A stretch of 64,000 nt of DNA, taken from Curtanaerobium respiraculi (GTDB taxonomy: Bacteria > Actinomycetota > Coriobacteriia > Coriobacteriales > Eggerthellaceae). A program made the translations under genes and the position numbers. Where the stretch lies: assembly GCF_024609215.1 (NCBI RefSeq), contig NZ_JANIPD030000043.1, positions 40,232-104,231 on the forward strand, given 5' to 3'. The stretch's first letter is position 1. Every line of letters starts with the position of its first letter. The notes beneath the pieces are model-generated. The model ran no database searches. It was not told the origin of the DNA and saw nothing but the letters and a program-made list of their open reading frames with translations. Below, piece after piece: positions 4,657 to 63,805 of this stretch.

Positions 4657-4666
4657 GGGGCAAGCC

Positions 4667-5041
4667 ATGAAGAAGAATTTATTCGCGTCCGCCATGGCCG
4701 CCGCCGTCCTCGCTGGCTGCCTCGGTTTGGCAGCGTGCAGCGCCTACAGTCCGAGCACGGCGGATCACACCACCGCTGCCGACTTCGCGAAGTCGGCATC
4801 CTACGCGGAAAGCCAGCCCCCGCTGCAGCCCTATAACGACCATAACGGCCGGTGGGAGGCGTTGGGCACCCAAGGTTGCATGGGGTGCCACGGGGTGAAC
4901 GACAAAGGCAAGCCGGTTCTGGAAAGCGCGACCGCCGTTCCCGAGGATCACTTCGTAAACGGCGATAAGGGCTCGGGGCAGCTCGATGCCAACCGGGCCC
5001 AGTGCATCCAATGCCATCCGGTGGCGGAACCTGAGCGGTAG
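4667..5041 (+). CDS. napB: NapB-like dihaem cytochrome c lipoprotein
   Basis: A 124-residue exported protein with two c-type haem motifs, CMGCH (71-75) and CIQCH (113-117), spaced as in the small electron-donating subunit NapB; PEDHF lies between them. The N-terminus is a lipoprotein signal with possible lipoboxes LAGC (Cys18) and LAAC (Cys24), so like NapA it is probably membrane-anchored rather than freely soluble. It starts 10 bases after the napA stop with AGGGGG as ribosome site. It should hand electrons to the NapA iron-sulfur cluster. Sequence similarity to proteobacterial NapB is limited to the haem region, so the name rests partly on context. Confidence 0.8.
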   Translation: MKKNLFASAMAAAVLAGCLGLAACSAYSPSTADHTTAADFAKSASYAESQPPLQPYNDHNGRWEALGTQGCMGCHGVNDKGKPVLESATAVPEDHFVNGDKGSGQLDANRAQCIQCHPVAEPER

Positions 5042-5105
5042 GCACGATCGCGCGGGCGTCCGCCGAGGGGCGGGTGCCCGCCGCAGTCAAGGAGGGGAGA
5101 GCAGC

Positions 5106-5405
5106 ATGGTGATATCCAGCTTGGTGATCGAAACGACGCACGCCAGCGTGCGGGCGGCCGCGGAAGCGCTCGCGCGGATCGAAGGCGTCGAAGTGCACAA
5201 CGTCGACGAGGAGGCCGATAAGATCGTCGTGACGATCGAAGTCGGCACCATCGGGGAGTCGCATCGAACGGCCAGCGGCTTCATGGATATCCCCGGCGTC
5301 ACCAACGTCGGGTTGGTGTACGCGAATTTCGAGGACGAGCCCTATTTGAAGAAGGAATGGGCCCGCCTCGATGCGGAGAAGGCGGAGATGGCATATGAGC
5401 GATAA
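5106..5405 (+). CDS. napD: NapD-like chaperone
   Basis: A 99-residue cytoplasmic protein with the ferredoxin-like fold pattern of NapD: a first strand MVISSLVIET, helix AAAEALARIEGVEVHNVDEE, strand KIVVTIEVG and the typical DIPGVTNVGLVYANFEDE ending. NapD binds the NapA Tat signal peptide and holds export until the molybdenum cofactor is inserted. ATG 5106 is supported by AAGGAGGGG just upstream; longer in-frame versions start inside napB. Its last 11 bases overlap the start of napH, so the two are probably translationally coupled. Confidence 0.85.
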   Translation: MVISSLVIETTHASVRAAAEALARIEGVEVHNVDEEADKIVVTIEVGTIGESHRTASGFMDIPGVTNVGLVYANFEDEPYLKKEWARLDAEKAEMAYER

Positions 5406-50427: not shown

Positions 50428-51267
50428 CTACCGCACGCGAGATGGTTTCGACCGCAGTTCATGCAAATACCTCTCATCGACTTCGCGATGCCGCGTCACC
50501 GCGACGCAGGCGTAAACGCACCTGCCCTCGCCCACGTCCACACGGTCGATCAGCACGTCCGTCCCGTAGATTGTGCGCATGGCCTCTTTCGTGATCACCT
50601 CGTGGGGAGCTCCTTTCGCAAGCACCCGCCCCCCGTGGAGGACTATCACCGAGTCGGCGCAGTAGAAAGCATGTGCCGGATCGTGCGTGACCATGAGCAC
50701 CGACATGCCGCTATCCACCAAATTGCGCATGCGGGAGAGCACCAGCTGCTGGTTCCCGAAATCAAGGCTTGCCGTGGGTTCGTCCATGACGAGGATATCG
50801 GGCTGCTGCGCGAGCGCCCGGGCGATGAGCACGAGCTGCTGCTGGCCCCCCGATAGCTCGCTGTACGGTTCGTTGGCAAGGTTCTGTATCTCGAGCTGGC
50901 ACAATGCCGCATAGGCAACGCGTCGATCGTGCCGCGTAAGCGATGCCATCTGGCTTACATAGGGCGTGCGCCCCATGAGCACGACGTCTTTTACCTGGAA
51001 GGGAAAGGGGAGCTTATGCGTTTGCGGGATATAGGCGAAATGGCCGGCCCGCTCCCGCTCGCCCATCGCGAGCACGTCTTCGCCGCCCACGTGGATGCTG
51101 CCCGCAATGGGATCGAGCAGTCCCAAGATGGTCTTCAACGTCGTTGTCTTCCCGCACCCGTTCGCGCCGATGATGCAGCAGAACTCGCACGGAGCAAGAT
51201 CGAACGTCACATCGTGGACGAGGGGGTTTCCGCCATACCCGCTCGTAAGGTCGCGAACCTCCAGCAT
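50428..51267 (-). CDS. FecE-type ABC transporter ATPase (system 1)
   Basis: A 279-residue ATP-binding subunit of an iron-siderophore/cobalamin-type importer. Walker A GANGCGKTT (about residue 34), Q-loop YIPQTHKLPFPF, signature LSGGQQQLVLIARAL and Walker B ILVMDEPTASLDFGNQQ are intact. The start at ATG 51267 (minus) follows GGAAGG; the frame extends further upstream but only as spacer. It lies behind the permease gene on the same strand, with the binding protein divergent at 52620. Substrate unknown. Confidence 0.9.
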   Translation of the reverse strand: MLEVRDLTSGYGGNPLVHDVTFDLAPCEFCCIIGANGCGKTTTLKTILGLLDPIAGSIHVGGEDVLAMGERERAGHFAYIPQTHKLPFPFQVKDVVLMGRTPYVSQMASLTRHDRRVAYAALCQLEIQNLANEPYSELSGGQQQLVLIARALAQQPDILVMDEPTASLDFGNQQLVLSRMRNLVDSGMSVLMVTHDPAHAFYCADSVIVLHGGRVLAKGAPHEVITKEAMRTIYGTDVLIDRVDVGEGRCVYACVAVTRHREVDERYLHELRSKPSRVR

Positions 51268-51350
51268 CGACCATCCTTCCCCCTGGCCACGTGGGCATCC
51301 GATTCCACGGCATTGCGAAGATTCCCAGCCTTGCTCTCGAGCGGTCATCG

Positions 51351-52442
51351 TCAGTTCCACCCTTTCGAATTGTGGTGGAAGATGACGGCGAAGAACGGCA
51401 CCCCCAAGATGGCGGTGAGGATTCCGATGGGTATCTCCATGGACAGCAGGCAGCGCGCGATGTCGTCGACGATTAACAGGTAGGTCGCCCCCAATATGAT
51501 GCTTGCGGGGAGCAGCTTGTGGTAGTTCGGGCCCACCAGCGCACGCGCGAGATGGGGTATGACGAGCCCGATCCACCCGATGACCCCCGAAACTGCCACG
51601 GAAACGGAGGTGAGCAGCGTGGCGGCCACGATCACGATGAAGCGCGTGCGCTTCGTATCGACCCCCAGGGCGCGCGCCTCGTCATCGCCCAATGAGAGCA
51701 CGTTGAGCTTCCACCGTTCGATGATGAGGAGCGCATATCCGATGAGCATCGGAATGAGGGCGATGGCGAGGTCGCTTTGATTCGCTCCCGAAAAACTGCC
51801 CATGAGCCAGTAGGTGATGGAGGGCAATTTATCGTTCACATCGGCAGCCAGCTTCACGATCGACGTGCCCGCCTGGAAGAGGGTCGATACCAGGATGCCG
51901 CCCAGCACCAATCCCAACAGCCGGTCGTATTTCACCATGCGGTTGAGGAACACCGCCATGCCGACAGCGGCCAAGCCCCCGCCGAAGGCGAGAAGCTGCG
52001 TCACCACGTTGGGAAGGCCGATGAGCAGCCCGATGCAGGCGCCCAAGCTCGCCCCCGCGCTCGCCCCGAGCAGATCGGGTGAAACCAACGGGTTGCGGAA
52101 CATGCCCTGGAACGCCGCCCCCGCGCTCGCAAGCGCCGCGCCCACCAATACGACCAGAAGGATGCGCGGAATGCGGATATTGAAGATGACCTTGTCGAGG
52201 CTCAAATCGCTCTGGGTTGCGACGGCGTCGTTGATATGGCGGGAAATACCTTCGATGAGCTCGATGGGAGTCACCGGATAACGACCCAACGCGAAGCTTA
52301 TGAGCACGATGGCGACGAGGCCCAGCGGCAACGCTATCTTCACACACAGGGATGTGCGAAGCGCGAATGTCCGGTCCGCTTCGCGTCCGAACAGATCATC
52401 GGCCTCCTGGTCAAAACGAGTTTCAGACGATTCGATGTGCAT
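51351..52442 (-). CDS. FecCD-type ABC transporter permease (system 1)
   Basis: A 363-residue polytopic membrane protein with about ten hydrophobic helices and typical FecCD/BtuC segments: RIPRILLVVLVGAALASAGA, FRNPLVSPDLLGASAGASLG and GWIGLVIPHLARALVGPNYH (the coupling helix region). A hydrophilic N-terminus of about 30 residues precedes the first helix. It should pair as a homodimer with the ATPase at 50428. It is transcribed away from the binding-protein gene at 52620. Confidence 0.9.
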   Translation of the reverse strand: MHIESSETRFDQEADDLFGREADRTFALRTSLCVKIALPLGLVAIVLISFALGRYPVTPIELIEGISRHINDAVATQSDLSLDKVIFNIRIPRILLVVLVGAALASAGAAFQGMFRNPLVSPDLLGASAGASLGACIGLLIGLPNVVTQLLAFGGGLAAVGMAVFLNRMVKYDRLLGLVLGGILVSTLFQAGTSIVKLAADVNDKLPSITYWLMGSFSGANQSDLAIALIPMLIGYALLIIERWKLNVLSLGDDEARALGVDTKRTRFIVIVAATLLTSVSVAVSGVIGWIGLVIPHLARALVGPNYHKLLPASIILGATYLLIVDDIARCLLSMEIPIGILTAILGVPFFAVIFHHNSKGWN

Positions 52443-52522
52443 GTGAACTTCCAGGTGATTATCGCGGGTGTTGCAAAACCATTTACCCGCCCGCTATTCA
52501 ATCCAATCGAAAAACAGGCGCA

Positions 52523-52551
52523 TTGTCATTATTCTCGCACATGTTTATTCT
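52523..52551 (+). promoter_or_regulatory. Promoter of binding protein 1
   Basis: TTGTCA (52523-52528), a 17-base spacer and TATTCT (52546-52551) in the AT-rich divergent region 52443-52619. Palindromic regulator sites are not obvious. Confidence 0.4.
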
Positions 52552-52619
52552 TTATCATATATCATAGGATCTGCAAATAGCGAGGGATGAGGCCTTCGCG
52601 TTTGAAGAAAGAAGGGGAT

Positions 52620-53753
52620 ATGAGGAAAACGCTTCGTAAGAGCATGCTCGGCATCGCGCTTGCATGCATCCTTGCCATAGCGGGGTTTACCGCCTTAGCA
52701 GGGTGCAGCAGCTCAAGCTCGACCAGCCAAGCATCGAGCTCGCCTTCCGCCAGCCAATCGGCTACCCGCACGATAACCGATGCCGCCGGTCGCACCGTCG
52801 AGATTCCCGCGGTGGCAGATCTCGAGAAGTCGGTTTACTGCACGAGCCCGATCTCTCAGATGTACCTGTATTCGCTCGCACCTGAACTAGCAGGCGGCAC
52901 GAATTCGAACTACAGCGATGCCGAGATGAAGTACCTTCCGGATACGGTGAAGGATCTGCCGAGCTATGGCACCTGGGCCATGAACGGAACGCTCGACAAC
53001 GAAGCGATGATGGCGGGCGGGATCAAGCTATTGCTGGATGTGTCATCATCCGCCATCACCGATAGCGATATCTCCGCAGCCAACGAGCTCCAAGAGCAGA
53101 CGGGCATTCCCGTCGTGCTGTTCGACGGATCGGTGGACAAGACCCCGGATACCTACCGCCAAATCGGCGAGGTGCTCGGCCAGCAAGAGCATGCCGAGCA
53201 ATGCGCCCAATATTGCGAGAAAGCCTATGACGAGGTCACGGCTGCTGTTTCGAAGGTGCCCGATTCCGAGAAGGTCAGCGTGTACTATGCCGAAGGGCCT
53301 GACGGATTGAAGACCGAACCGCAGAACTCACCCCATTTCACGACATTCGCAACCGCAGGTGCCATCGATGCCGCGCAATGCGATATGACCAAGGGGTCCG
53401 GCATGACGCAAGTTTCGCTTGAGAACGTCATAGCGTGGAACCCGCAGGTCATCATCGCATGGAGCGCCAAATATCGCGGTGGATCGGATGAGGCGATCCG
53501 CACGAGCAGCGACTGGGCATCCATCGACGCCGTGCGGGACGGCAAGGTGTACACGATCCCATGCCTGCCGTACACCTGGGGGGATCGCCCCCCGTCGGTA
53601 ACCCGCTACATCGGCATGCAGTGGCTCGCCAACAAGCTGTACCCCGCCTATTACGATGTGGATATGGTGAAGACGACGCAGGAGTTCTACAGCACGTTCT
53701 TCAACGTGACCCTCAGCGCGCAAGAGGCTCAGGACATCCTCAACGTATCGTGA
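52620..53753 (+). CDS. FecB/BtuF-type solute-binding lipoprotein (system 1)
   Basis: A 377-residue lipoprotein. The signal peptide ends in LAGC (Cys29), followed by a serine-rich linker and a helical-backbone binding fold (TRTITDAAGRTVEIP at the start; NVIAWNPQVIIAW and DGKVYTIPCLPYTWGDRPPS in the C-lobe). It ends with YYDVDMVKTTQEFYSTFFNV, as in binding proteins for iron complexes or other metals. ATG 52620 follows AAGGGG. It is divergent from the permease and ATPase genes and followed by a terminator. The ligand cannot be read from sequence. Confidence 0.88.
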   Translation: MRKTLRKSMLGIALACILAIAGFTALAGCSSSSSTSQASSSPSASQSATRTITDAAGRTVEIPAVADLEKSVYCTSPISQMYLYSLAPELAGGTNSNYSDAEMKYLPDTVKDLPSYGTWAMNGTLDNEAMMAGGIKLLLDVSSSAITDSDISAANELQEQTGIPVVLFDGSVDKTPDTYRQIGEVLGQQEHAEQCAQYCEKAYDEVTAAVSKVPDSEKVSVYYAEGPDGLKTEPQNSPHFTTFATAGAIDAAQCDMTKGSGMTQVSLENVIAWNPQVIIAWSAKYRGGSDEAIRTSSDWASIDAVRDGKVYTIPCLPYTWGDRPPSVTRYIGMQWLANKLYPAYYDVDMVKTTQEFYSTFFNVTLSAQEAQDILNVS

Positions 53754-53929: not shown

Positions 53930-54504
53930 TTACTTGCGCTTGGCAATCATGACGGCGGCGGTTAACGCGGCGGCGCCGACTGCGGCAGCGGCTACGACGC
54001 CTTTGTTGTCCTTTGCCGCCTGCATGACGGTTTGGCCTGCATCGGCGGCAACGGCGCCGTAGTTGGCCAGCGTTTCCTGCGTGCCACCCAGTCCCTCGGA
54101 CACGGCGTACGACGCGGTGGAAACAGATGCGTACGTGCCCGGGTTCTCGTCCACGGTTTTGCCCAGGATATTATTGGCCGCGTAAATGCCGCTGATGGCC
54201 GCGGGCTCCATCCCTAAGCCATTGTGGTCACCTTCCAACCCTCGCCGGCCTTTTCCACCTTGGTCACCAGGTTGCCCAGCAGCACATTGCCGCTGGCCTG
54301 GCTCAGGCGCTCGGTCATGCCGTCGGCGTCGAAGTCGAAGCGGATCAGGCTCATGACCAGCTGCATGCTGGTGTCGTTGCAGATGCGCCCGCCCATGTAG
54401 TCGGCGATCAGCAGGTAGTCGTGGTCGGCCTTCTGCAGGTCAAGCGCGCAGTTCATGCCAGCGGCACCGGCGCCTACGATTATGGTCTTGTGATCGAATG
54501 CCAT
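53930..54504 (-). pseudogene. Remnant of an FAD-dependent oxidoreductase
   Basis: The minus strand encodes an N-terminal piece from ATG 54504 with a dinucleotide-binding motif (IIVGAGAAGMNCALDL) that stops after VTTMA. A C-terminal piece in another frame begins GMEPAAISGIYAANNIL, the typical last FAD-contact region of flavoproteins, and runs to a stop at 53930. The two pieces overlap at about 54214-54238, and the middle of the protein (a normal member would be several hundred residues) is missing, so a large internal deletion plus frameshift has occurred. A good ribosome site (AGAGAGGAAA) still precedes the start. Confidence 0.75.
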
Positions 54505-54806: not shown

Positions 54807-55025
54807 ATGCAGACGATCCACTCAGTAGCTGACCTCGGGTTGGCTATCCGCGTAGAACGAAAAGCGCAGGGGCTCACCCAAACGCAGCTTGCGGATTTAA
54901 GCGGGTCGGGACTCACCTTCATATCGAACCTCGAACGCGGCAAGACGACCTCCGAAATCGGGAAGGTCCTTACCGTCATGAACACGCTCGGCTTGGACAT
55001 GGCCTGCATGAAGCGGGGCCAGTGA
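54807..55025 (+). CDS. hipB: HipB-like antitoxin, XRE-type repressor
   Basis: A 72-residue helix-turn-helix protein (LGLAIRVERKAQGLTQTQLA, SGLTFISNLERGKTT) of HipB type, the DNA-binding antitoxin of a HipBA toxin-antitoxin module. It overlaps hipA by one base (TGATG), ensuring coupled synthesis. Autoregulation through the inverted repeat at 54750-54785 is likely. GC is lower than in the housekeeping genes. Confidence 0.85.
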   Translation: MQTIHSVADLGLAIRVERKAQGLTQTQLADLSGSGLTFISNLERGKTTSEIGKVLTVMNTLGLDMACMKRGQ

Positions 55026-56305
55026 TGGACCTTCCCGTTTCGCGCCAAACTGCCGATGGGATTGTCGATGTGGGATGTATCGTCGACATCGAGGGTCTCA
55101 ATCCGCGGTTTTCCTATCTCCCTGAGTATCTGACCAATCCGCAGCGTGGCTCGTTGTCGCTTTCCCTTCCCCTGCGGGAAGCAGCGTTTAGCGAGGACGA
55201 GTTCAGGCCGTATTTCGAGGGGTTGCTGCCAGAAGGCGATGAACGACGTGCCTTAGCAGCGCGACTTGCCGTGCGGGAAGACGACTATCTGGCGATTCTT
55301 GCACGGTGCGGAATCGACTGCATCGGCGACGTCATATTGAATAAACAGGCATATGTCGAGTCGGCAGCGTATCGGCCGATTGCTCTGGACAGGCTGCATT
55401 CGAACACGGCAACCCCCAACCCCAGCGCGCGTATGCAAAGTGAATCTCGCCTGTCTCTTGCGGGAACGCAGTCGAAAGTCGGCCTCTATCACGATGATGA
55501 AGAAGAGTTTTCGGAGGGTTGGTTCCAGCCGTTGGGCGGTGCTCCTTCGAATTTCATCGTGAAGTTCGCGCATGACGAACTGCCCGACTTGCTCACTGTC
55601 GAGTTCCTTTCCCTCGCCTGTGCCAAGGCGTGCGGTTTAGAGGTTGCTGAAACGCATCTCGTCAATCCAGCTGCTCCACTTCTGTGCTCGCGCAGGTTCG
55701 ATCGCAAAGAACGCGCTGGCGGAACAATCGGTGGATTGCCGGCCCCCTTGCGGCTCCATCAAGAAGACTTCACCCAGGCCATGGGCCTGCTCCCTGCATC
55801 GAAGTATGCCGAGCTCGAGCCATCGACAGCGCAATCGGTGGCAGAGTTCATGCAGATGCATTTCTCGGCACCTGGCCTTGCCCGCCTTGCCTTCGCACGC
55901 CTGGCGCTTTTCAACTACCTCATCGGCAACTGCGACAACCACCTGAAGAACTTCTCCATTCTGCATTCGGAAGATGGTAGATCCTTCCGCCTTGCTCCGG
56001 CATACGACATCGTGAGCACTGCGTATTTCGCGCGATTCAGCAGGCAGATGGGCATGGCGATAGGAGGCACACGCGATATCGATGCGGTGGCCCCCTCTGA
56101 CTTAGCTATGTTGTCGAAGCAGATGGATGTGGCGCCGCGCCTACTCCACGGAGTGGTGGAAGGTTTTCAATCACATGCCGTTCCCGCATTGCGAAGCGAG
56201 GCGGAAAAACTTGCCGCTCTTGGCTTTAGCGCGGCGCCTTATATCGCCGATGATCTGGAGTCAAAATTGGCTCCTCGTATGCAGGTGCTGCGAGAATCTT
56301 TCTAG
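55025..56305 (+). CDS. hipA: HipA-like serine/threonine kinase toxin
   Basis: A 426-residue HipA-family kinase. The HipA N-terminal subdomain (GLLPEGDERRALAARLAVRE, SLAGTQSKVGLY) is followed by the kinase core with VKF for ATP binding, CSRRFDRK, LHQEDFTQAMG, the catalytic loop GNCDNHLKNFSIL and the metal site LAPAYDIV. E. coli HipA phosphorylates glutamyl-tRNA synthetase and induces persistence; the target here is unknown. All catalytic motifs look intact. Confidence 0.88.
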   Translation: MDLPVSRQTADGIVDVGCIVDIEGLNPRFSYLPEYLTNPQRGSLSLSLPLREAAFSEDEFRPYFEGLLPEGDERRALAARLAVREDDYLAILARCGIDCIGDVILNKQAYVESAAYRPIALDRLHSNTATPNPSARMQSESRLSLAGTQSKVGLYHDDEEEFSEGWFQPLGGAPSNFIVKFAHDELPDLLTVEFLSLACAKACGLEVAETHLVNPAAPLLCSRRFDRKERAGGTIGGLPAPLRLHQEDFTQAMGLLPASKYAELEPSTAQSVAEFMQMHFSAPGLARLAFARLALFNYLIGNCDNHLKNFSILHSEDGRSFRLAPAYDIVSTAYFARFSRQMGMAIGGTRDIDAVAPSDLAMLSKQMDVAPRLLHGVVEGFQSHAVPALRSEAEKLAALGFSAAPYIADDLESKLAPRMQVLRESF

Positions 56306-56375: not shown

Positions 56376-57110
56376 TCAGGCCCCGCAGGAGGAGTTTTCG
56401 TTGAGAAGGGCGCATTCGAGTGCAATAAATCCGCTCAGCCTGAAGTGGTTCTTCGAAAAGTCGATGATTCCCTCGCTTCTCAGCTTGCCCAATTCTGCCG
56501 ACAATGAGCTGCGCTCGACATTCAGATAATTCGCCATCTGCTGCCTGTCGAAGGGGATGTCGAATGAGCGCGAACCGCTGCTCTCGCTTTGGTATGACAG
56601 GAAGGTGAGTATCTTCTTTCTTATCGTGCGTTGCGACAGGGTATCGAGTTTCTTCATGAGCTGCAGTTTGCTGTCCACGATAATCCGCGTGAAATTGCCG
56701 ATCAGGATGCTGAAGCATTCGCCGAGCGGGTCATCCCGGCGATGGCATATGGCGTTACGGTCGAACAGTATGAGCCTGCAGTCGGTCAACGCCACGGCGT
56801 TGGCCGGGGGCTTGTCCACGTCCGAAAACGCAAGTATCCCCCCGATCGTCTGCCCGGGTCCCGCGATGCTGAGTATGTGCTTGTCCCCCCATGCGTCCGT
56901 TGTGGCGATTTCGACCCTGCCCGATACCAGGTAGTCGAAACAGGACACCTGTTGGTGCAGCGTGAATATGAGGTCGCCCTTTGGAACGGATGCGAACCGA
57001 GCCTGCATGCGATTAGCTACGGCGTCGATCTGGTCGCGGGAAAGGCCATTGAAAAGCGATGACCGAATCAAGATGCGTGTAACTTCATCCATATTGTTCG
57101 AATGCGACAT
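56376..57110 (-). CDS. Crp/Fnr-family transcription regulator
   Basis: A 244-residue protein with a cyclic-nucleotide-binding-like sensor domain (about 19-135: LFNGLSRDQIDAVANRM, YLVSGRVEIATTDAWGDKHI) and a C-terminal winged HTH (about 165-235: FDRQQMANYLNVERSSLSAE, GKLRSEGIIDF). There is no FNR-type N-terminal cysteine cluster. It is divergent from the binding-protein-2 gene, and a perfect palindrome (57174-57187) lies in the shared region, so it probably controls the importer operon and itself. The effector is unknown. Confidence 0.85.
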   Translation of the reverse strand: MSHSNNMDEVTRILIRSSLFNGLSRDQIDAVANRMQARFASVPKGDLIFTLHQQVSCFDYLVSGRVEIATTDAWGDKHILSIAGPGQTIGGILAFSDVDKPPANAVALTDCRLILFDRNAICHRRDDPLGECFSILIGNFTRIIVDSKLQLMKKLDTLSQRTIRKKILTFLSYQSESSGSRSFDIPFDRQQMANYLNVERSSLSAELGKLRSEGIIDFSKNHFRLSGFIALECALLNENSSCGA

Positions 57111-57173
57111 GGTTCACCTTTTGTCTCGCGTGCGGAGCCGCTAAGCGATCGACCGCAATTCATTTCCTCATCC

Positions 57174-57208
57174 GTTGGATATCCAACATATTCTCAAACA
57201 AGTATAAT
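57174..57208 (+). promoter_or_regulatory. Palindromic regulator site and promoter of the importer-GTPase operon
   Basis: GTTGGATATCCAAC (57174-57187) is a perfect 14-bp palindrome. TATAAT (57203-57208) starts 15 bases after it. The palindrome occupies the -35 region, as for a class II activator site or a competing repressor. The adjacent Crp/Fnr-family gene is the likely source of the binding protein. The remaining leader is about 75 bases. Confidence 0.6.
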
Positions 57209-57292
57209 CTACTCTTCGATATATGGTGCAAGCAAGAATAATCCTGCTTATGGCTTGACGATGCAATGGATACAAGTTGGAAAGGAGCAGGC

Positions 57293-58459
57293 ATGAAGGA
57301 ACGCATCATGGGAAGAGGGAAGGATAGGCGGCGCAGCGTCGGTTTTGTTGCAATCGCAATCGCCCTGATCATGGCTTTGGCGGTCTGCGCAGGTTGCGCA
57401 TCGCCTTCACCTTCGAACGAGAGAGCGTCAAGCGCCAGCGTGTCCAGCGCTAGCGCATCGGCGGACGGTACGCGCACGATAACCGACGCTTTGGGCCGCG
57501 AAGTGAAGGTTCCCGCGAAGGTGGAACGCGTCGCAATCGTCCAGGTGCCTATCCTGAGCACGTATGTCGCATACCAAGGCGGCACGACCAAAGGCCTGGT
57601 CGGCGTCTCGAAGAACATTATCGGCAGCATGAAGGGCTCGGTTCTCATGGACATGATTCCCGACCTGCAGAATCTTTCCTCCGATTGCTTTGCCGACGGC
57701 AAATTGAACATGGAAGAGCTCGTCAAGCTCAAGGCTGATGTCATCATCATTCCCAACCAGAATGCTGAGCTGGCCGAAAATCTGCAGAAAGCCGGCTTGA
57801 ACGCGGTGGCGTTCAACGTCGCCGGAGATCCGAAAGCGCTATACGTCGAGTGGTTGCGCATGCTAGAAGATCTGTTCGACGAGCCGGGTAAGATGGATGC
57901 ATGCATCGTCGATGGCGAAGCCATGTACCAGAAGGTTGAGAAAGCTGTCGGCGATGCGAGTGACAAGCCCAGCATTCTGACAGTGTTCGGGTATTCAAAT
58001 GGAAACATGCAGGTTACGGGCAGCGGTTCGCGCGCCACATTCTGGTATCAGTACGCAAACGCGGCCAACGCAGCCGAAGAGATCAATGGCATCGACGGCA
58101 CCAGCATGGAGCAGGTCGTCGCCTGGAACCCGGACATCATTCTGCTGCCCGGCATCGGTCAGTGCCAATACCTGCCGCCCGATCTGATCGGCAACACCAT
58201 CGAAGGAGCCGATTTCTCCGCGCTCTCCGCAGTTCAAAACGGCAAAGTGTATTGCAACGGCCTGGGCAGCTGGAGCTGGTTCACCCCGAGCGTCGACTGG
58301 CCTTTGACGATGGAATGGCTTGCGAAGGTCACCCATCCTGATTTGACCTCGGACATCGATGTCGTTGCCGACACGAAGGCGTATTACAAGAGCTATTACA
58401 ACGTCGATCTCAGCGATGCCCAGATGAGCGACATATTCCCCGACTACGCGGGAATCTGA
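57293..58459 (+). CDS. FecB/BtuF-type solute-binding lipoprotein (system 2)
   Basis: A 388-residue lipoprotein with a basic N-terminus, hydrophobic core and probable lipobox ending at Cys35 (VCAGC). After a serine/alanine linker comes TRTITDALGREVKVP, the same opening as binding protein 1, then VIIIPNQNAELAENLQKAG in the N-lobe and QVVAWNPDIILLPG and QNGKVYCNGLGSWSWFTPS in the C-lobe. It ends in YNVDLSDAQMSDIFPDY. AAAGGAG precedes ATG 57293. It is the first gene of a six-gene operon that continues to 63220. Ligand unknown; iron, cobalamin-like or other metal complexes are possible. Confidence 0.87.
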   Translation: MKERIMGRGKDRRRSVGFVAIAIALIMALAVCAGCASPSPSNERASSASVSSASASADGTRTITDALGREVKVPAKVERVAIVQVPILSTYVAYQGGTTKGLVGVSKNIIGSMKGSVLMDMIPDLQNLSSDCFADGKLNMEELVKLKADVIIIPNQNAELAENLQKAGLNAVAFNVAGDPKALYVEWLRMLEDLFDEPGKMDACIVDGEAMYQKVEKAVGDASDKPSILTVFGYSNGNMQVTGSGSRATFWYQYANAANAAEEINGIDGTSMEQVVAWNPDIILLPGIGQCQYLPPDLIGNTIEGADFSALSAVQNGKVYCNGLGSWSWFTPSVDWPLTMEWLAKVTHPDLTSDIDVVADTKAYYKSYYNVDLSDAQMSDIFPDYAGI

Positions 58460-58490
58460 TCAGGGACCCCGGCTCGATAAAGGGGCATGC

Positions 58491-59513
58491 GTGCTTGAGA
58501 AGCTGTTCGATAGCAGAAAGCGCTATGTGGTCTACGGAGCGCTCGCCGCGGCGGTTGCCGCGGCGGCGTTCATATGCCTGACGTGCGGCCGCATGCCCCT
58601 TTCCGTCTCGGAGGTATGGGGCGACATCGCCGCGCACCTCACGGGAGGCGATGTCGACCACAATATCGACCTCGTCGTCTTCTCGCTGCGCATCCCGCGC
58701 ATTCTGCTTGCATTGTTCGTAGGCGCGGGGTTGGCATGTGCCGGCGCCTCGTACCAAAGCGTGTTTTCGAATCCGCTTGCCACCCCCGATACATTGGGCG
58801 TTGCGAGCGGCGCGGCCGTCGGCGCCGTGGTGGGCCTGCTGCTCGATTTTCCCATGGCGATAGTGCACTTGTCCGCGTTCCTAGCTGGTTTGGGCGCTAC
58901 GGCGCTGACGGTGATGTTCGCGCGCGTGCAGGCCACCATGACGATAACAAGGCTCATCCTCTCGGGTGTCATTGTGACGTCGCTGATGAATGCCACGATA
59001 TCCATCGTGAAACTGGTCGCCGACCCCGCAGACCAGCTACCTGAGATCACGTATTGGCTCATGGGCGGGCTTACGGGCGCCACGGATACCGCGCTCACAT
59101 ATGGGGGCATCTGTATCACGGTGGGCATCGCGGGGCTCATGCTGCTGCGGTGGCGGCTGAACATATTAGCACTCAGCGAAGAGGAGGCGCGCGCATCGGG
59201 TATGCGTATCGCTCCCATGCGCCTTGCCGTCATCGTGCTTTCAACGCTCATCACGGCATCGGTGGTATCCATCTGCGGGCAGGTTGGCTGGGTGGGGTTG
59301 GTCATTCCCCATTGCGCGCGTTTGATCTGCGGATCCAACAACCGCTTCGTCATACCGACGAGCGTGCTGCTCGGCGCGCTGTTCATGGTGGTGGTCGACA
59401 CCGCGGCTCGTTCGGCGCTTGCCATGGAGATCCCGCTCTCCATTCTCACCGCATTCATTGGCGCCCCGGTATTCGTGGTGCTTCTGCGCAACACGGGTAG
59501 GGCGGTGAAATGA
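58491..59513 (+). CDS. FecCD-type ABC transporter permease (system 2)
   Basis: A 340-residue membrane protein with the FecCD pattern: RIPRILLALFVGAGLACAGA, FSNPLATPDTLGVASGAAVG and GWVGLVIPHCARLICGSNNR. The start is GTG 58491, with AAAGGGG upstream. The arrangement of motifs parallels the system 1 permease, indicating a shared family but with clearly different sequence. It overlaps the ATPase gene by 4 bases. Confidence 0.9.
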   Translation: MLEKLFDSRKRYVVYGALAAAVAAAAFICLTCGRMPLSVSEVWGDIAAHLTGGDVDHNIDLVVFSLRIPRILLALFVGAGLACAGASYQSVFSNPLATPDTLGVASGAAVGAVVGLLLDFPMAIVHLSAFLAGLGATALTVMFARVQATMTITRLILSGVIVTSLMNATISIVKLVADPADQLPEITYWLMGGLTGATDTALTYGGICITVGIAGLMLLRWRLNILALSEEEARASGMRIAPMRLAVIVLSTLITASVVSICGQVGWVGLVIPHCARLICGSNNRFVIPTSVLLGALFMVVVDTAARSALAMEIPLSILTAFIGAPVFVVLLRNTGRAVK

Positions 59514-60316
59514 AGCTGCGGGTTGAAAATGCATCCTTCAGCTATGGGAAGGGCGAAGGCGGCGAGGTCATTCGAAGCCTGTCCTTCGGGGTGGATGCCG
59601 GCGAGCTTCTTTACCTGGTGGGTCCGAACGCCGTGGGGAAGTCGACGCTGCTCCGTTGCATGCTGGGCATTCTCAAGTGGAGCGAAGGCCGGACGCTGCT
59701 GGATGGGCAAGATGTTGCTGCGCTGAAGCCACGTGACATGTGGTCGCATGTGGGATATGTGCCGCAGGTGCATCACACGACGCTGTCCTTGACCGCCTTG
59801 GAAACCGTGCTGTTGGGAAGAAGCGCCCACATCGGTTTATTTTCGCAGCCTTCTGCTGAGGACGAACAGGCAGCCATGAGGGCGCTCGGCGATGTGGGGA
59901 TGGCGAGCGCAGCTCGTAGGCAGTTGCAGCTGCTGTCCGGAGGCCAACAGAGGCTCGTGCTCATCGCGAAAGCCTTGGCAGCCCATCCCCACGTTCTGGT
60001 TCTGGACGAACCGGAATCCGGGCTTGACTTCCACAACCAGCTTGTGGTGCTGGACCTGCTAAGCCAGCTGGCGCATGAACAGGGGCTGGCCGTGATCATG
60101 ACCACGCATTATCCCGAACACGCGCTTCGGGGGCATGGGAAAGCCCTCCTTTTGGAAGGGCCGGGGGAAGCGCTCTTCGGCGATTCGCTTTCCGTGATCA
60201 CCGAAGAGAATATGCGGCGTGCGTTCAGAGCAGACATTCGCATTCGCGAAGTGGGCATCGATGGATCAACGTATCGGAGCATCATCGCGCTCGGCGCACT
60301 TGATGGCAAACGATGA
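59510..60316 (+). CDS. FecE-type ABC transporter ATPase (system 2)
   Basis: A 268-residue ATPase: Walker A GPNAVGKST (about residue 41; Val replaces the usual Gly/Ala), Q-loop YVPQVHHTTLS, signature LSGGQQRLVLIAKAL, Walker B VLVLDEPESGLDFHNQ and H-loop TTHYPEHAL. It energises the system 2 permease. ATGA overlap with the permease gene; the next gene starts 82 bases on. Confidence 0.9.
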   Translation: MKLRVENASFSYGKGEGGEVIRSLSFGVDAGELLYLVGPNAVGKSTLLRCMLGILKWSEGRTLLDGQDVAALKPRDMWSHVGYVPQVHHTTLSLTALETVLLGRSAHIGLFSQPSAEDEQAAMRALGDVGMASAARRQLQLLSGGQQRLVLIAKALAAHPHVLVLDEPESGLDFHNQLVVLDLLSQLAHEQGLAVIMTTHYPEHALRGHGKALLLEGPGEALFGDSLSVITEENMRRAFRADIRIREVGIDGSTYRSIIALGALDGKR

Positions 60317-60398
60317 CGGTGAGACAGGGGATCAGGTGCTTTGCCATCTGCGGCCCATCGTCAAGTGAAAAGGAAAAACGAGTGGAGGAGAGACAGCC

Positions 60399-61088
60399 AT
60401 GCAATTCATTACCGTTGCCGGACCGCCGTCATCGGGGAAAACATCGGTCATTCTCAAAGCGATAGACCGGCTGAAAGCTCAGGGAAAGCGCGTGGGCGTG
60501 GTGAAGTTCGATTGCCTGAGCTCGCTCGACGATAAGACGTACGAACGCCACGATGTCCCCGTTGTAGTGGGCTTGGCGGGCAACCTATGCCCAGACCACT
60601 TCTTCATCATCAACATCGAGCAGTGCATAGAGTGGGGCGAACGCGAAGGCTTCGATGTGCTCATAAGCGAAAGCGCCGGCCTATGCAACCGTTGCTCGCC
60701 GCACGTGAGGGGCATCTTGGCAATCTGCGTTATCGATAATCTGGCCGGCATCAATACGCCGAAGAAGATCGGTCCCATGCTTCGCCTCGCCGATGTTGTC
60801 GTGGTGACCAAGGGCGACATCGTAAGCCAGGCGGAACGCGAGGTGTTTTACAACCATATTCACCAGGTGAACCCTCGTGCGCGCATCGTGCCCGCAAACG
60901 GCATAACCGGGCAGGGCTCTGTTCAGATCGCCAATCTCATGGCTGCGGAGCGTGATGTCGAGACGCTGTTGGGGGAGCACCTACGCTTTTCGATGCCCTC
61001 GGGGTTGTGCTCGTATTGCTTGGGGCAGACGCTCATCAGCGATACGAATTCATCGGGAAGCGTGCGCCGTATAGATTTCGGACACTAG
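60399..61088 (+). CDS. HypB/UreG-like (G3E-related) P-loop GTPase
   Basis: A 229-residue soluble protein. P-loop GPPSSGKTS is at residues 8-16, a switch-like VVKFDCLSS follows, and ESAGLCNRCSPHVRG (Glu91, Cys96, Cys99) takes the place of the ESGG/ENVG metal-relay segment of UreG and HypB. TKGD is the nucleotide-specificity motif. NGITGQGS and a second cysteine pair CSYC (204-207) follow. HypB and UreG insert nickel; here the CxxC pairs could bind a metal or cluster. GGAGGAG precedes the ATG. I recall close relatives in many anaerobes beside ABC importers, without assigned function. Confidence 0.8.
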   Translation: MQFITVAGPPSSGKTSVILKAIDRLKAQGKRVGVVKFDCLSSLDDKTYERHDVPVVVGLAGNLCPDHFFIINIEQCIEWGEREGFDVLISESAGLCNRCSPHVRGILAICVIDNLAGINTPKKIGPMLRLADVVVVTKGDIVSQAEREVFYNHIHQVNPRARIVPANGITGQGSVQIANLMAAERDVETLLGEHLRFSMPSGLCSYCLGQTLISDTNSSGSVRRIDFGH

Positions 61089-61100
61089 CAGGGGGATATC

Positions 61101-62150
61101 ATGGAAAAACGCGAAGTAGAGCGATACCTGCTGAAGACGGGGTACGACGATCTGATCGAACGGTTCCCCTATCTGGAAAACATGTTCTCGGCCATTCGTA
61201 TCAGCCCATTTGCGGGGACGGATACCGTTATAGACATCCTGAACTCATACCCGGATGAGAGCTTTACCGATTACGGGTTCACTAAGACCGCCTTTGCGAC
61301 ATCCATCATCGATTTCATCGACACATATGGGTTCGAGGAACGGGAAGATAGCCCGGCGATCGCCAGCATCACGATTCGCGGCGGGCATGATAAGGACGGC
61401 TATCCCGAAGGCCTGGATGTCACGGTGCGTGCCGGTGAAGTAGTTTGCATCGTAGGCCCCACAGGTTCTGGAAAAAGCCGCCTGCTGGAGGATGTGGAAT
61501 CCCTTGCGCAGGACGATACGCCATCGGGTCGGTCGGTGCTGGTGAACGGAGAAGCTCCATCCGAAGAGATGCGCGCTCGAATGGGGAGGCGCATGATCGC
61601 CCAAATCACGCAGAACATGAACTTCGTCATAGATCTGACGGTTGCGGCGTTTGTGAGTATGCATGCTCAGAGCAGAAACGTATTCGATCCGTGCATCATC
61701 GACCGCGTAATAGCATGCGCGAACGAACTGTCGGGCGAGCATTTCGAGGGAGATACGCCGATAACGCAACTATCGGGCGGACAATCGCGTGCGCTCATGG
61801 TGGCGGATACCGTGGTTCTTTCCGAATCCCCCATCGTGCTTATCGATGAAATCGAGAATGCCGGCATCGACCGCGCTGCAGCGCTTTCCATGCTCGTCGA
61901 TGAGGGCAAAATCGTTCTGCTGTCCACCCACGACCCGGTATTGGCGCTCGGCGGATGCCGCAGGCTCGTCATTGAGAATGGCGCGGTGAAGGCGATACTG
62001 GAAAGCACACCTGAAGAGCGCAAGAATCTTTCGCTGCTTCGCAAGCTCGATTCGTTCATGCTGTCATTGCGCAATGGAATCCGGGGTGGCGAACGATTGG
62101 ATGACGACCTGAGAGCCAGATTGCATGGCGCGTTGTCGGCAGCCGAGTAG
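61101..62150 (+). CDS. ABC-type ATPase without permease, with N-terminal DUF1858-like domain
   Basis: A 349-residue soluble ATPase. Residues about 1-75 are a small helical domain (DTVIDILNSYP, FTDYGFTK) resembling DUF1858. The ABC core has Walker A GPTGSGKSRLLED (about 119-131), Q-loop QITQNMNF, signature LSGGQSRALMVAD (about 223) and H-loop STHDP. Walker B is IVLIDEIENAG where importers have DEPT. The Q-loop environment lacks the coupling-helix partner features of FecE proteins. No membrane partner of its own is present. It starts 12 bases after the GTPase gene and probably acts on a soluble partner, such as the next gene product. Confidence 0.78.
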   Translation: MEKREVERYLLKTGYDDLIERFPYLENMFSAIRISPFAGTDTVIDILNSYPDESFTDYGFTKTAFATSIIDFIDTYGFEEREDSPAIASITIRGGHDKDGYPEGLDVTVRAGEVVCIVGPTGSGKSRLLEDVESLAQDDTPSGRSVLVNGEAPSEEMRARMGRRMIAQITQNMNFVIDLTVAAFVSMHAQSRNVFDPCIIDRVIACANELSGEHFEGDTPITQLSGGQSRALMVADTVVLSESPIVLIDEIENAGIDRAAALSMLVDEGKIVLLSTHDPVLALGGCRRLVIENGAVKAILESTPEERKNLSLLRKLDSFMLSLRNGIRGGERLDDDLRARLHGALSAAE

Positions 62151-62161
62151 AAGGAGGGCAC

Positions 62162-63220
62162 ATGGATACCTTGCATACGCTCGAATATGACCAAGGTTTG
62201 CTCGACCTGGTGGGAGATGCCGTAGCAAGCCATACCGCCAAAAGGAATCTCGATCTCATGGTGGGCGTTCCCTGTCCGATGAAGCAGCGATTTAGGAATG
62301 AATACGACCAATACGAAGCGAAATACCGTGCTGAAACAGGCAGAAGGCTTTTCAGCTTCGTTCCCACGATGTGTCCTGCGGATTTGGAAACCGAGAACAC
62401 GGTGCGCGACTATGAGGCTATGAAAACCACCGATGATATCCCCGATCTGATGATCGATATGGTGTTCGGCGACTTGATATTCACAGATTTCTTCGATCGC
62501 TTCGTGACGAAGGGCGCGTTTAAACGCGTGATGGATGCGGCGCCGCTTCCCATCATGGACCCCGTGCTGTTCAGGGAGCGCTATGATGCGTTCAACCCGC
62601 TGGCGCTGTTTCCCGAGGTTCTGCTTGTGGATAGGGAGGAATTGGGAGGCAGGCCGGTCCCGCATAAGCTTGAGGACCTGATGGACCCCGTATACAAAGG
62701 CTGCATCGCGGCGCCCGACCAGCACAACGAGATAGGCACGAGATTCCTTCTGCACATCTGGAAGCAGTATGGCGAAGAGGGCCTTGCCGCGATGGAGCGC
62801 AACTTCAGTATCGGGTTCGTGGGTCCCGAAGCCGCCCGCACCGCCGGTACGAAATCGGAGCCTCGCTGCGCCATTTACATGGCCCCGTGGATCTTTGCGC
62901 AGGGGTCTGAAAACCCCGGTCGCGTTGACGTGGTCTGGCCGGAAGACGGCGTGCTCGCGCAGCCGATAGCCCTGCTTGCCAGAAAGGATATGAAGCCCGA
63001 GAATCAACCGCTGCTGGATTGGCTGCTTTCCGAGCAGGTTGGGCGTATCTTCTCGGACAACTACTTCTTGTCCACGCATCCAAACGTGGACAACCATATG
63101 CCCGAAGGGGCAAAAGTAACATGGCTCGGTTGGGATTGGATTTACAATGCGGATATCGCGGCGAAGAAGGTCGAGCTGGAACAACGCTTCGCGCGCTTTC
63201 ATAGGAAAGGCTTGTGCTGA
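62162..63220 (+). CDS. Cytoplasmic solute-binding-protein-like (PBP2 fold) protein
   Basis: A 352-residue protein resembling iron(III)-type periplasmic binding proteins (PLEDLMDPVYKGCIAAPD, VVWPEDGVLAQPIALLAR, NQPLLDWLLSEQVGRIFSDN). There is no signal peptide, Tat motif or lipobox: the first 30 residues are charged and helical. A conserved-looking Cys38 in GVPCPMK and another in VPTMCPADLE are possible metal or cofactor ligands. AGAAGGAGG precedes the ATG. It closes the six-gene operon. A cytoplasmic receptor or carrier for whatever the FecBCD part imports is my inference. Confidence 0.75.
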   Translation: MDTLHTLEYDQGLLDLVGDAVASHTAKRNLDLMVGVPCPMKQRFRNEYDQYEAKYRAETGRRLFSFVPTMCPADLETENTVRDYEAMKTTDDIPDLMIDMVFGDLIFTDFFDRFVTKGAFKRVMDAAPLPIMDPVLFRERYDAFNPLALFPEVLLVDREELGGRPVPHKLEDLMDPVYKGCIAAPDQHNEIGTRFLLHIWKQYGEEGLAAMERNFSIGFVGPEAARTAGTKSEPRCAIYMAPWIFAQGSENPGRVDVVWPEDGVLAQPIALLARKDMKPENQPLLDWLLSEQVGRIFSDNYFLSTHPNVDNHMPEGAKVTWLGWDWIYNADIAAKKVELEQRFARFHRKGLC

Positions 63221-63432: not shown

Positions 63433-63508
<76 letters not shown>

Positions 63509-63519
63509 TTGCTGAATGG

Positions 63520-63553
63520 GGCCGGCCGAACACAACTATTCGGCCGGCCTTTT
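63520..63553 (+). terminator. Terminator after tRNA-Gly
   Basis: GGCCGGCCGAA and TTCGGCCGGCC form an 11-bp stem with an 8-base loop, followed by TTTT. It lies only 10 bases before tRNA-Cys, which therefore needs readthrough or its own promoter. Confidence 0.8.
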
Positions 63554-63562
63554 AAGTGAGAT

Positions 63563-63636
63563 GGCGACGTGGCCAAGTGGTAAGGCATGGGCCTGCAAAG
63601 CCTTGATCTCCGGTTCGAATCCGGACGTCGCCTCCA
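63563..63636 (+). tRNA. tRNA-Cys (GCA)
   Basis: Acceptor GGCGACG pairs with CGTCGCC, anticodon GCA is at 63595-63597, the T-arm contains GGTTCGAAT, and CCA is encoded. Confidence 0.95.
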
Positions 63637-63730
63637 TCTTCATCGATAATGGGCGTTTTTTATAAAGCGGTTTACAAAACGGACAGCTTTGGTAGAATAC
63701 GCAAGCGTCGCGCACGCGACATACCCTTGA

Positions 63731-63805
63731 GGGCGTTTAGCTCAGGGGGAGAGCGCTTCCCTGACACGGAAGAGGCCACAAGTTCAAATCTTGTAACGCC
63801 CACCA
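63731..63805 (+). tRNA. tRNA-Val (GAC)
   Basis: Acceptor GGGCGTT pairs with AACGCCC, anticodon GAC is at 63763-63765, the T-arm contains AGTTCAAAT, and CCA is encoded. Confidence 0.95.

Follow-up and report, generated by a model that had tools for sequence, protein, structure and literature searches.

How nitrogenase is supplied with metal has been well studied for diazotrophs of the Azotobacter type and far less for obligate anaerobes, and we know of no function for many of the nitrogenase-like enzymes that anaerobes possess. Among the described systems closest to the one treated here are those of the G3E GTPases, a family that comprises HypB, UreG, MeaB and COG0523 as defined in the accessible part of PMC9164220, the Type II ABC importer MolBC-A, which carries molybdate (PMC4031551, accessible in part), and the nitrogenase-like genes that Dos Santos et al. 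described beside ABC transporters and hydrogenase maturation genes (PMC3464626, likewise in part). A stretch of 64,000 nucleotides from the genome of Curtanaerobium respiraculi (contig NZ_JANIPD030000043.1, positions 40,232 to 104,231; the window) carries a six-gene cassette that combines a FecBCD-type importer with three soluble proteins, namely a GTPase of the HypB/UreG kind, a permease-less ABC ATPase and a solute-binding protein (SBP) without signal peptide, together called the triad. As the original prediction for this DNA had assumed, no published function for the triad or the six-gene set was found in a literature search, but most subscription papers lie outside the coverage of that search and one may exist.

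The triad is a conserved module, and its type II branch, to which the window belongs, is linked to nitrogenase and nitrogenase-like systems. The cassette may be a supply line for a metallocentre, with FecBCD importing a metal complex that the triad then delivers to nitrogenase or to enzymes resembling it, a reading in which our confidence and our doubt are about evenly matched.

The six-gene cassette

The six open reading frames lie on one strand with intergenic distances of 31, -4, 82, 12 and 11 bases, much as the original prediction had described them, and their domains are borne out by Pfam with scores that in all six cases exceed the gathering thresholds (Table 1). The genes of the FecE-type ATPase and the permease overlap by 4 bases. 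In the frame of the FecB gene the first ATG is found at 57266, AAAGGAG lies just upstream of 57293, and the N-terminus of the protein is hydrophobic and followed by AGC. By Pfam, a FecCD permease, a Peripla_BP_2 protein and an ABC ATPase together constitute a FecBCD-type importer, and no named equivalog of such importers (vitamin B12, F420-0, heme, ferric siderophores) passed its NCBIfam cut-off among the matches listed, which for the ATPase were the best 25 of 187. There is no membrane protein among the last three genes of the cassette, which agrees with the prediction that their ABC ATPase is permease-less. An inverted repeat with arms of at least 8 that could serve as a Crp-type site was not found in window 57090-57300, and scans for promoters and terminators performed no better than on shuffled sequence.

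Table 1. Features of the cassette, its surroundings and related runs in the same genome
Feature	Position	Strand	Evidence
FecB/BtuF-type substrate-binding lipoprotein	57293..58459	+	Pfam Peripla_BP_2, 54.1 bits
FecCD-type permease	58491..59513	+	Pfam FecCD, 263.9 bits
FecE-type ATPase, importer component	59510..60316	+	Pfam ABC_tran, 98.7 bits
G3E (HypB/UreG-like) GTPase	60399..61088	+	Pfam cobW (CobW/HypB/UreG), 50.2 bits
Permease-less ABC ATPase	61101..62150	+	Pfam ABC_tran, 55.7 bits, residues 104-250
Cytosolic SBP, FbpA/FutA fold	62162..63220	+	Pfam SBP_bac_6, 167.3 bits
Crp/Fnr-type regulator, divergent from cassette	56376..57110	-	Pfam cNMP_binding + HTH_Crp_2
Second FecB-type lipoprotein, probable part of extended locus	52587..53753	+	Pfam Peripla_BP_2
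Second FecCD-type permease	51351..52442	-	Pfam FecCD, 287.5 bits
Second FecE-type ATPase	50428..51267	-	Pfam ABC_tran, 106.7 bits
NifHDK-like + FecBCD run 1	L088:7400-13667 (G000:C1)		Nif-like genes Pfam-confirmed
NifHDK-like + FecBCD run 2	L089:4918-11192 (G000:C3)

A conserved triad in two types

Named genomes were scanned with one GTPase pair; of the 431 stretches matched, 407 are relatives, and the best 80 were analysed (loci carry L numbers and genomes G numbers below). The ABC ATPase accompanies the GTPase at 80 of the 80 loci and the SBP at 78, within at most 5 kb and on the same strand, the exceptions being L016, where no SBP was seen, and L019, where the contig begins at the GTPase. 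As 78 of 80 related loci share the triad, its co-occurrence is far beyond chance, and the suggestion that the three soluble genes travel together has withstood the neighbourhood check that had been named beforehand as a possible refutation. In L036 the GTPase and the ABC ATPase are fused in one protein of 507 residues (confirmed by Pfam), and a like pattern is seen in L042 and L064. By record titles the phyla with triads include Bacillota, Bacteroidota, Actinomycetota, Pseudomonadota and Thermodesulfobacteriota, further Spirochaetota, Fusobacteriota and Krumholzibacteriota, and a tblastn search of plasmids gave one useful record, a chromosome-sized one of Fusobacterium. Within the class to which the window belongs, a search with the SBP, which is divergent, matched 2 of 149 genomes, the window's own and a second one with a weak match of 28%, and the GTPase was therefore used there instead; it is present in 6 of 296 genomes. 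One of the six, G407 (locus L162) of the window's own family, possesses all six genes of the cassette, arranged as FecC, FecE, GTPase, ABC, FecB, SBP.

In a GTPase tree of 92 rows, type I is a clade of 57 rows (support 100/99), and type II, which may be paraphyletic, comprises the remaining 35 rows including the window, apart from the long branches L132, L134 and L135, whose place is unsure. The window's GTPase stands in type II next to those of Propionibacteriaceae (5 rows, 100/98). The 80 loci divide into 27 of type II and 53 of type I; six of them are outside the tree, five having GTPases identical to others and L081 being assigned to type I by its zinc-ribbon gene. The gene order of type II is variable, and that of type I, where it was read, is SBP with an extra N-terminus (which we take to be DUF1858-like, with a weak match in L003), then GTPase, then ABC ATPase. 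A zinc-ribbon protein of 80 residues with the pattern MH(D/E/S)GC...CxxC...CPxC...PCHAFD (e.g. L061:5168-5410) is encoded at 31 of the 53 type I loci and at none of the 27 type II loci. In a divergent form of the triad (L137, L138, L163-L166) the order GTPase-ABC-SBP faces a Crp-type gene, as the window's cassette does, the regulator being identified by Pfam in L137, by BLAST label in L163-L166 and by eye in L138; beyond it, L138 and L166 have an NMT1/SsuABC-type importer.

Link of type II triads to nitrogenase

Nitrogenase component 1 (PF00148) was searched in the genomes of 40 loci, which had been chosen by eye from their gene arrangement in two lists that later agreed with the tree. It is present in all 22 type II genomes tested (best E 9.8e-102 to 2.8e-140) versus 5 of the 18 type I genomes; the 22 are part of the 27 type II genomes, with L045, L049, L059, L070 and L072 outside. 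Four of the 22 (L007, L036, L041, L042) already showed nif-type genes near the triad at the time of choice, namely nifHDK, nifH or nifV-like ones; with these four left out, the count is 18 of 18. A nifH gene lies at 3 of the 27 type II loci versus 0 of the 53 type I loci. The load of PF00148 is unusual in G160 (of L033) with 36 matches and in G161 (of L036) with 28.

An even sample of 196 genomes was drawn from the class of G159 (L024, Clostridium ljungdahlii), the chosen centre. The GTPase (E <=1e-30) is found in 13 of these genomes, and PF00148 exceeds its cut-off in 32 and reaches E <1e-100 in 12. At the latter level it is present in 3 of 3 type II genomes (G159, i.e. the centre, G278 and G367) versus 0 of 9 type I genomes; the overall overlap is modest, with PF00148 in 5 of the 13 GTPase-bearing versus 27 of the 183 other genomes. 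Of the 41 chosen genomes, 34 have a NifB match above the cut-off, among them 19 of the 22 of type II (all but G149, G151 and G163). AnfG/VnfG occurs in 10 of the 41, 8 of which belong to the 22, and a specificity for V or Fe-only nitrogenase was rejected on this ground.

The genes can also be joined directly. In L137 (G329) one run reads GTPase-ABC-SBP-NifH-NifD-NifK-like-FecB-FecC-FecE, divergent from the Crp-type gene, and all but FecE are confirmed by Pfam. The window's genome (2.5 Mb, 44 contigs, 99.5% complete) has four PF00148 matches in two pairs, the best at 1.2e-28 as compared to 9.8e-102 or better in the 22 type II genomes, and both pairs lie in runs of NifH-, NifD- and NifK-like genes with FecB, FecC and FecE genes. 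A NifB-dependent nitrogenase was rejected for this genome, where neither NifB nor true NifDK was found. In L142, L145 and L147 two NifDK-like sets occur together with HypF and, by eye, HypD/HypE-like genes, and HydF is seen in L147 (Pfam) and L145 (by eye), so that hydrogenase maturation genes adjoin nitrogenase-like ones, a pairing already noted in PMC3464626.

Importers and modifying enzymes beside the triads

A FecC gene accompanies 10 of the 27 type II loci but none of the 53 type I loci, and this bears on the explanation that FecBCD and triad are neighbours without a common function, the triad being a stress or regulatory NTPase module. Such an explanation would suit the type I triads and the divergent ones of L138 and L163-L166, which occur without FecBCD, and the 17 of 27 type II loci at which FecC was not seen (7 of the 27 loci are shorter than 15 kb), but the difference between the two types, the reshuffled set of six genes in L162 and the single run with NifHDK-like genes in L137 argue for a functional relation, and mere neighbourhood is scarcely probable at all.

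Methyltransferases dependent on S-adenosylmethionine (SAM) show a similar distribution, with 9 of 27 type II versus 0 of 53 type I loci, and could mean that the imported substrate is an organic metallocofactor, a tetrapyrrole, corrinoid or other chelate, which is remodelled by methyltransferase, radical SAM, SUMT-like or NifHDK-like enzymes, with the triad extracting or inserting the cofactor and not a bare metal. A radical SAM gene similar to HmdB/BioB in L024 and L008, SUMT-like and TrmO genes in L050, genes that by eye resemble TonB receptors in L016, L050 and L060, and the NifHDK-like genes within FecBCD operons all fit with this, and some nitrogenase-like enzymes act on tetrapyrroles according to the accessible part of PMC11423573. 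In the window's cassette region, however, no such modifying genes were seen, and no corrinoid importer model passed the curated NCBIfam cut-off among the matches listed. The SBP fold and the GTPase family are, moreover, best known for small ions. We regard chelate remodelling as quite unlikely.

The proteins of the triad

The window's GTPase has the G3E motifs GPPSSGKT (Walker A), ESAG (G3 glutamate) and TKGD (G4, for which the family form is [NT]KxD). In 30 aligned sequences G8-T15, E91 and D140 are invariant, as are C64-P-D-H67, C96/C99 and C204/C207, the cysteines of the window's protein being at 39, 64, 76, 96, 99, 110, 204 and 207. A profile search matches structures of UreG and HypB and aligns the Cys-Pro of CPDH over that of UreG. 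The CPDH motif resembles the metal site of HypB and UreG, in which CPxH is presumably the metal-binding position, and it is a putative metal site, as judged from the sequence. The CxCC metal motif of COG0523 was not found in the window's GTPase. Neither HypB nor UreG could be accepted as its identity, the best NCBIfam match (TIGR00073, HypB) reaching 50.3 bits with a cut-off of 121.2 and TIGR00101 (UreG) 23 bits with a cut-off of 204.2.

That HypB is the best match at all might indicate a maturation of nickel or other [NiFe]/carbon monoxide dehydrogenase (CODH)-type enzymes, in which the GTPase would be a HypB paralogue and the zinc-ribbon protein of type I a HypA-like partner, as its weak HypA match (21.5 bits, cut-off 28.9; zinc-ribbon matches are also below cut-offs) would allow. 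Yet the GTPase is far below the HypB cut-off, the zinc-ribbon protein is encoded at no type II locus, type II is linked to nitrogenase, and no hydrogenase, urease or CODH genes were recognised by eye beside the triads among the loci listed, all of which makes a nickel system very improbable.

The ABC ATPase has an extra N-terminal stretch of about 85 residues, mostly helical in the predicted model, and the sequence DEIENAG in its Walker B/D-loop region is invariant in 14 aligned sequences. In Foldseek the model matches ABC ATPases, with CbiO1 first. The SBP, which the original prediction had described as lacking a signal peptide, reaches a maximal 15-residue hydropathy of 0.85 in its first 75 residues versus 3.05 in the FecB lipoprotein, and for the first 45 residues the maxima are 0.11-1.71 in 21 type II SBPs (window included) versus 1.81-3.14 in ten FecB proteins, so that this description can be upheld. 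It has a PCPxK motif with C38 invariant in 21 aligned sequences. A search of the PDB with the single SBP sequence gave no match, a profile search matched FbpA-type and other binding proteins, and for the predicted model the best matches are ferric-binding proteins (FbpA-type fold). From the aligned range, C38 presumably lies within about one residue of the His ligand site of FbpA, and of the His/Glu/Tyr-Tyr iron ligands of ferric-binding proteins the tyrosine pair seems to be absent, as read from the aligned ranges.

The resemblance of the SBP model to ferric-binding proteins leads to the possibility that the triad serves iron or iron-sulfur supply or repair, as an intracellular relay under starvation or nitrosative/redox stress, with nitrogenases as large Fe-S consumers and type I serving Hcp and damaged centres. 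FecBCD importers belong to a family that transports siderophores and heme, an Hcp gene accompanies 4 of the 53 type I loci (L039, L056, L061, L073), several have regulators of the Crp type or, as judged by eye, similar to Rrf2 next to them, and some triad genomes are devoid of both MoaC and nitrogenase. On the other hand, there are ModB-type genes by 10 of the 80 loci and a ModE-domain gene in L060, the tyrosines that bind ferric iron seem to be lacking, and the genomes without triad, 183 of 196 and 290 of 296 in the class samples, need Fe-S clusters as well. An iron relay is thus unlikely, albeit not to the degree of the chelate and nickel explanations.

Which metal

For type II, molybdenum is the best guess, and another metal or a chelate is possible. 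The ModB-type permease genes by 10 of the 80 loci are found in Bacillota, Thermodesulfobacteriota, Krumholzibacteriota and Gemmatimonadota; by type, ModB is at 6 of 27 type II loci and at 5 of 53 type I loci, one of the latter doubtful. Not counted were a weak match in L073 and one in L026 that is apparently an incomplete sulfate permease; L002 and L154, which also have matches, are outside the 80 loci. A full ModABC set was recognised by eye in eight loci (L012, L021, L031, L033, L034, L036, L041, L042), and L032 and L068 have the ModB match alone. In Krumholzibacteriota bins and one Gemmatimonadales bin ModABC lies near type I triads. In addition to the ModE-domain gene in L060 there is a molybdopterin-domain regulator in L036. 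DUF364, the genome context of which includes Mo, W and V transport according to the accessible part of PMC2954201, is encoded at 4 of 27 type II loci (L024 by Pfam; L016, L068 and L072 by tblastn) versus 0 of 53 type I loci.

For the whole triad family, molybdenum was rejected by MoaC searches and is kept for type II alone. Of the 13 GTPase-bearing genomes in the class sample, six lack both MoaC and a PF00148 match above the cut-off (G284, G301, G310, G334, G357 and G378, all but G301 of type I), and in Fusobacterium vincentii, where MoaC was not found, the triad is followed by genes that by eye are ZnuABC-like, which speaks against a purely molybdenum-related function. MoaC shows a weak trend in the class sample (6 of 13 GTPase-bearing versus 33 of 183 other genomes) and is present in 9 of the 22 type II genomes, some of which are incomplete metagenome-assembled genomes, and in the window's genome. 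Where MoaC is truly absent, an enzyme with molybdenum cofactor cannot be the client. A replacement of NifQ, which is known to donate Mo, by the triad was rejected as a simple pattern, since the two coexist in 4 of 29 type II genomes and NifQ is absent from all 9 nif-bearing class-sample genomes without the GTPase.

The metal import that the original prediction had proposed is thus supported in so far as FecBCD, ModABC and ZnuABC-like importers stand beside part of the loci and the GTPase has the G3E motifs and CPDH; that a metal is the cargo, and the order in which it is handed over, we infer.

A possible route from importer to client

In the supply line that we favour, FecBCD would bring in a metal complex, and the FbpA-fold SBP, being without signal peptide, would take up the metal species in the cytosol. 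The permease-less ABC ATPase, similar to a transporter motor, would act on this soluble SBP and drive the release of the metal, which the GTPase, as a metallochaperone of the HypB/UreG kind, could then hand to the client. In type II genomes nitrogenase, or the machinery for its cofactor, would in most cases be the client; in the window's genome this role may fall to a molybdoenzyme or to one of the two NifHDK-like systems, which lie in separate FecBCD operons. A more specific form of the proposal is a hitherto unrecognised insertion machine, driven by ATP and GTP, for metallocentres of the nitrogenase type, in which the membrane-free ABC motor, the cytosolic SBP and the G3E GTPase hand over a heterometal or chelate to nitrogenase and nitrogenase-like enzymes and dedicated FecBCD importers feed the system; this form is tentative, and we would sooner doubt than believe it.

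Several points weigh against the supply line. The sampled genomes are relatives and not independent, so that Fisher tests overstate the significance of the counts. Nitrogenase as such does not require the triad, because 9 of the 12 strong-nitrogenase genomes of the class sample are without the GTPase, and it marks no single nitrogenase type, given how NifB and AnfG/VnfG are distributed over the type II genomes. A search for NifB in the window's genome gave no match, and the NifDK-like genes there are divergent. The type II loci without visible FecC, the type II genomes with both NifQ and triad, the six triad genomes without MoaC and nitrogenase, which disfavour molybdenum for the family as a whole, and the apparent lack of the tyrosine pair in the SBP belong here as well.

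Surroundings of the cassette

The second FecBCD set (Table 1) is divergent, spans 50428-53753 and lies 3.5 kb upstream of the cassette. Neither this set nor the Crp/Fnr-type gene had been part of the original prediction, and the same is true for the nitrogenase link and the triads without FecBCD. The closest of nine compared FecB proteins to that of the cassette is the one of L137 (32%, 214 bits), and the closest three of 14 compared FecC proteins come from NifHDK-like/FecBCD cassettes (L140, L141, L143). Among the proteins compared, the FecB of the second set is closest to FecB proteins from type II triad loci (L021, L008, L024, L162) and its FecC to those of L024 and L008. As the affinities of FecB and FecC differ between the sets, the locus apparently unites one system's importer with the other system's importer and triad.

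Between the two FecBCD sets, a gene for a HipA-like kinase with both HipA domains is located at window 55022-56305, and two short open reading frames on the minus strand at window 53930-54504 look by eye like a broken flavocytochrome/FAD oxidoreductase gene. Directly downstream of the cassette are genes for tRNA-Gly, tRNA-Cys and tRNA-Val (window 63433-63805), possibly an insertion site for an acquired island. Farther away, at window 2089-5405, a Nap-like molybdopterin oxidoreductase is encoded (Pfam), behind which cytochrome and NapD-type look-alikes were noted by eye.

Comparison with known systems

A conserved three-protein module that is genetically tied to nitrogenase and nitrogenase-like enzymes is a testable entry point. 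If the proposal is true, an importer-to-client route with a cytosolic SBP and a membrane-free ABC motor would join the short list of metallochaperone systems, and this new kind of metal delivery could explain how nitrogenase is fed in many anaerobes without NifQ and how nitrogenase-like enzymes mature without NifB. The proposed role resembles that of NifQ and other nitrogenase cofactor donors, in that metal would be supplied to nitrogenase assembly. The fold of NifQ is not known to be related to those of the triad proteins.

With the nickel systems HypA/HypB and UreE/F/G/H, as treated in the accessible part of PMC9164220, the triad shares the G3E family with its motifs, the CPxH sequence and, as proposed here, the character of a dedicated accessory set for a metalloenzyme. 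It differs from them in the nitrogenase-type link and in its partners, with an ABC ATPase and a cytosolic SBP in place of HypA or UreF/H. With the ferric-binding proteins FbpA/FutA the window's SBP has the SBP_bac_6 profile and the fold in common, but it is without signal peptide and without a permease of its own. MolB is presumably a member of the FecCD family. MolBC-A is a precedent for the import of molybdate by a Type II (BtuCD-like) importer, likened here by description and not by sequence, and the accessible part of PMC4031551 does not describe the triad. Closest in arrangement are the NifDK-like genes next to ABC transporters, for which a coupling of metal transport and cofactor assembly has been suggested in the accessible part of PMC3464626 and of which the window's genome has two operons; in the window itself, the FecBCD importer is joined not to NifHDK-like genes but to the triad, which that part of the paper does not describe.

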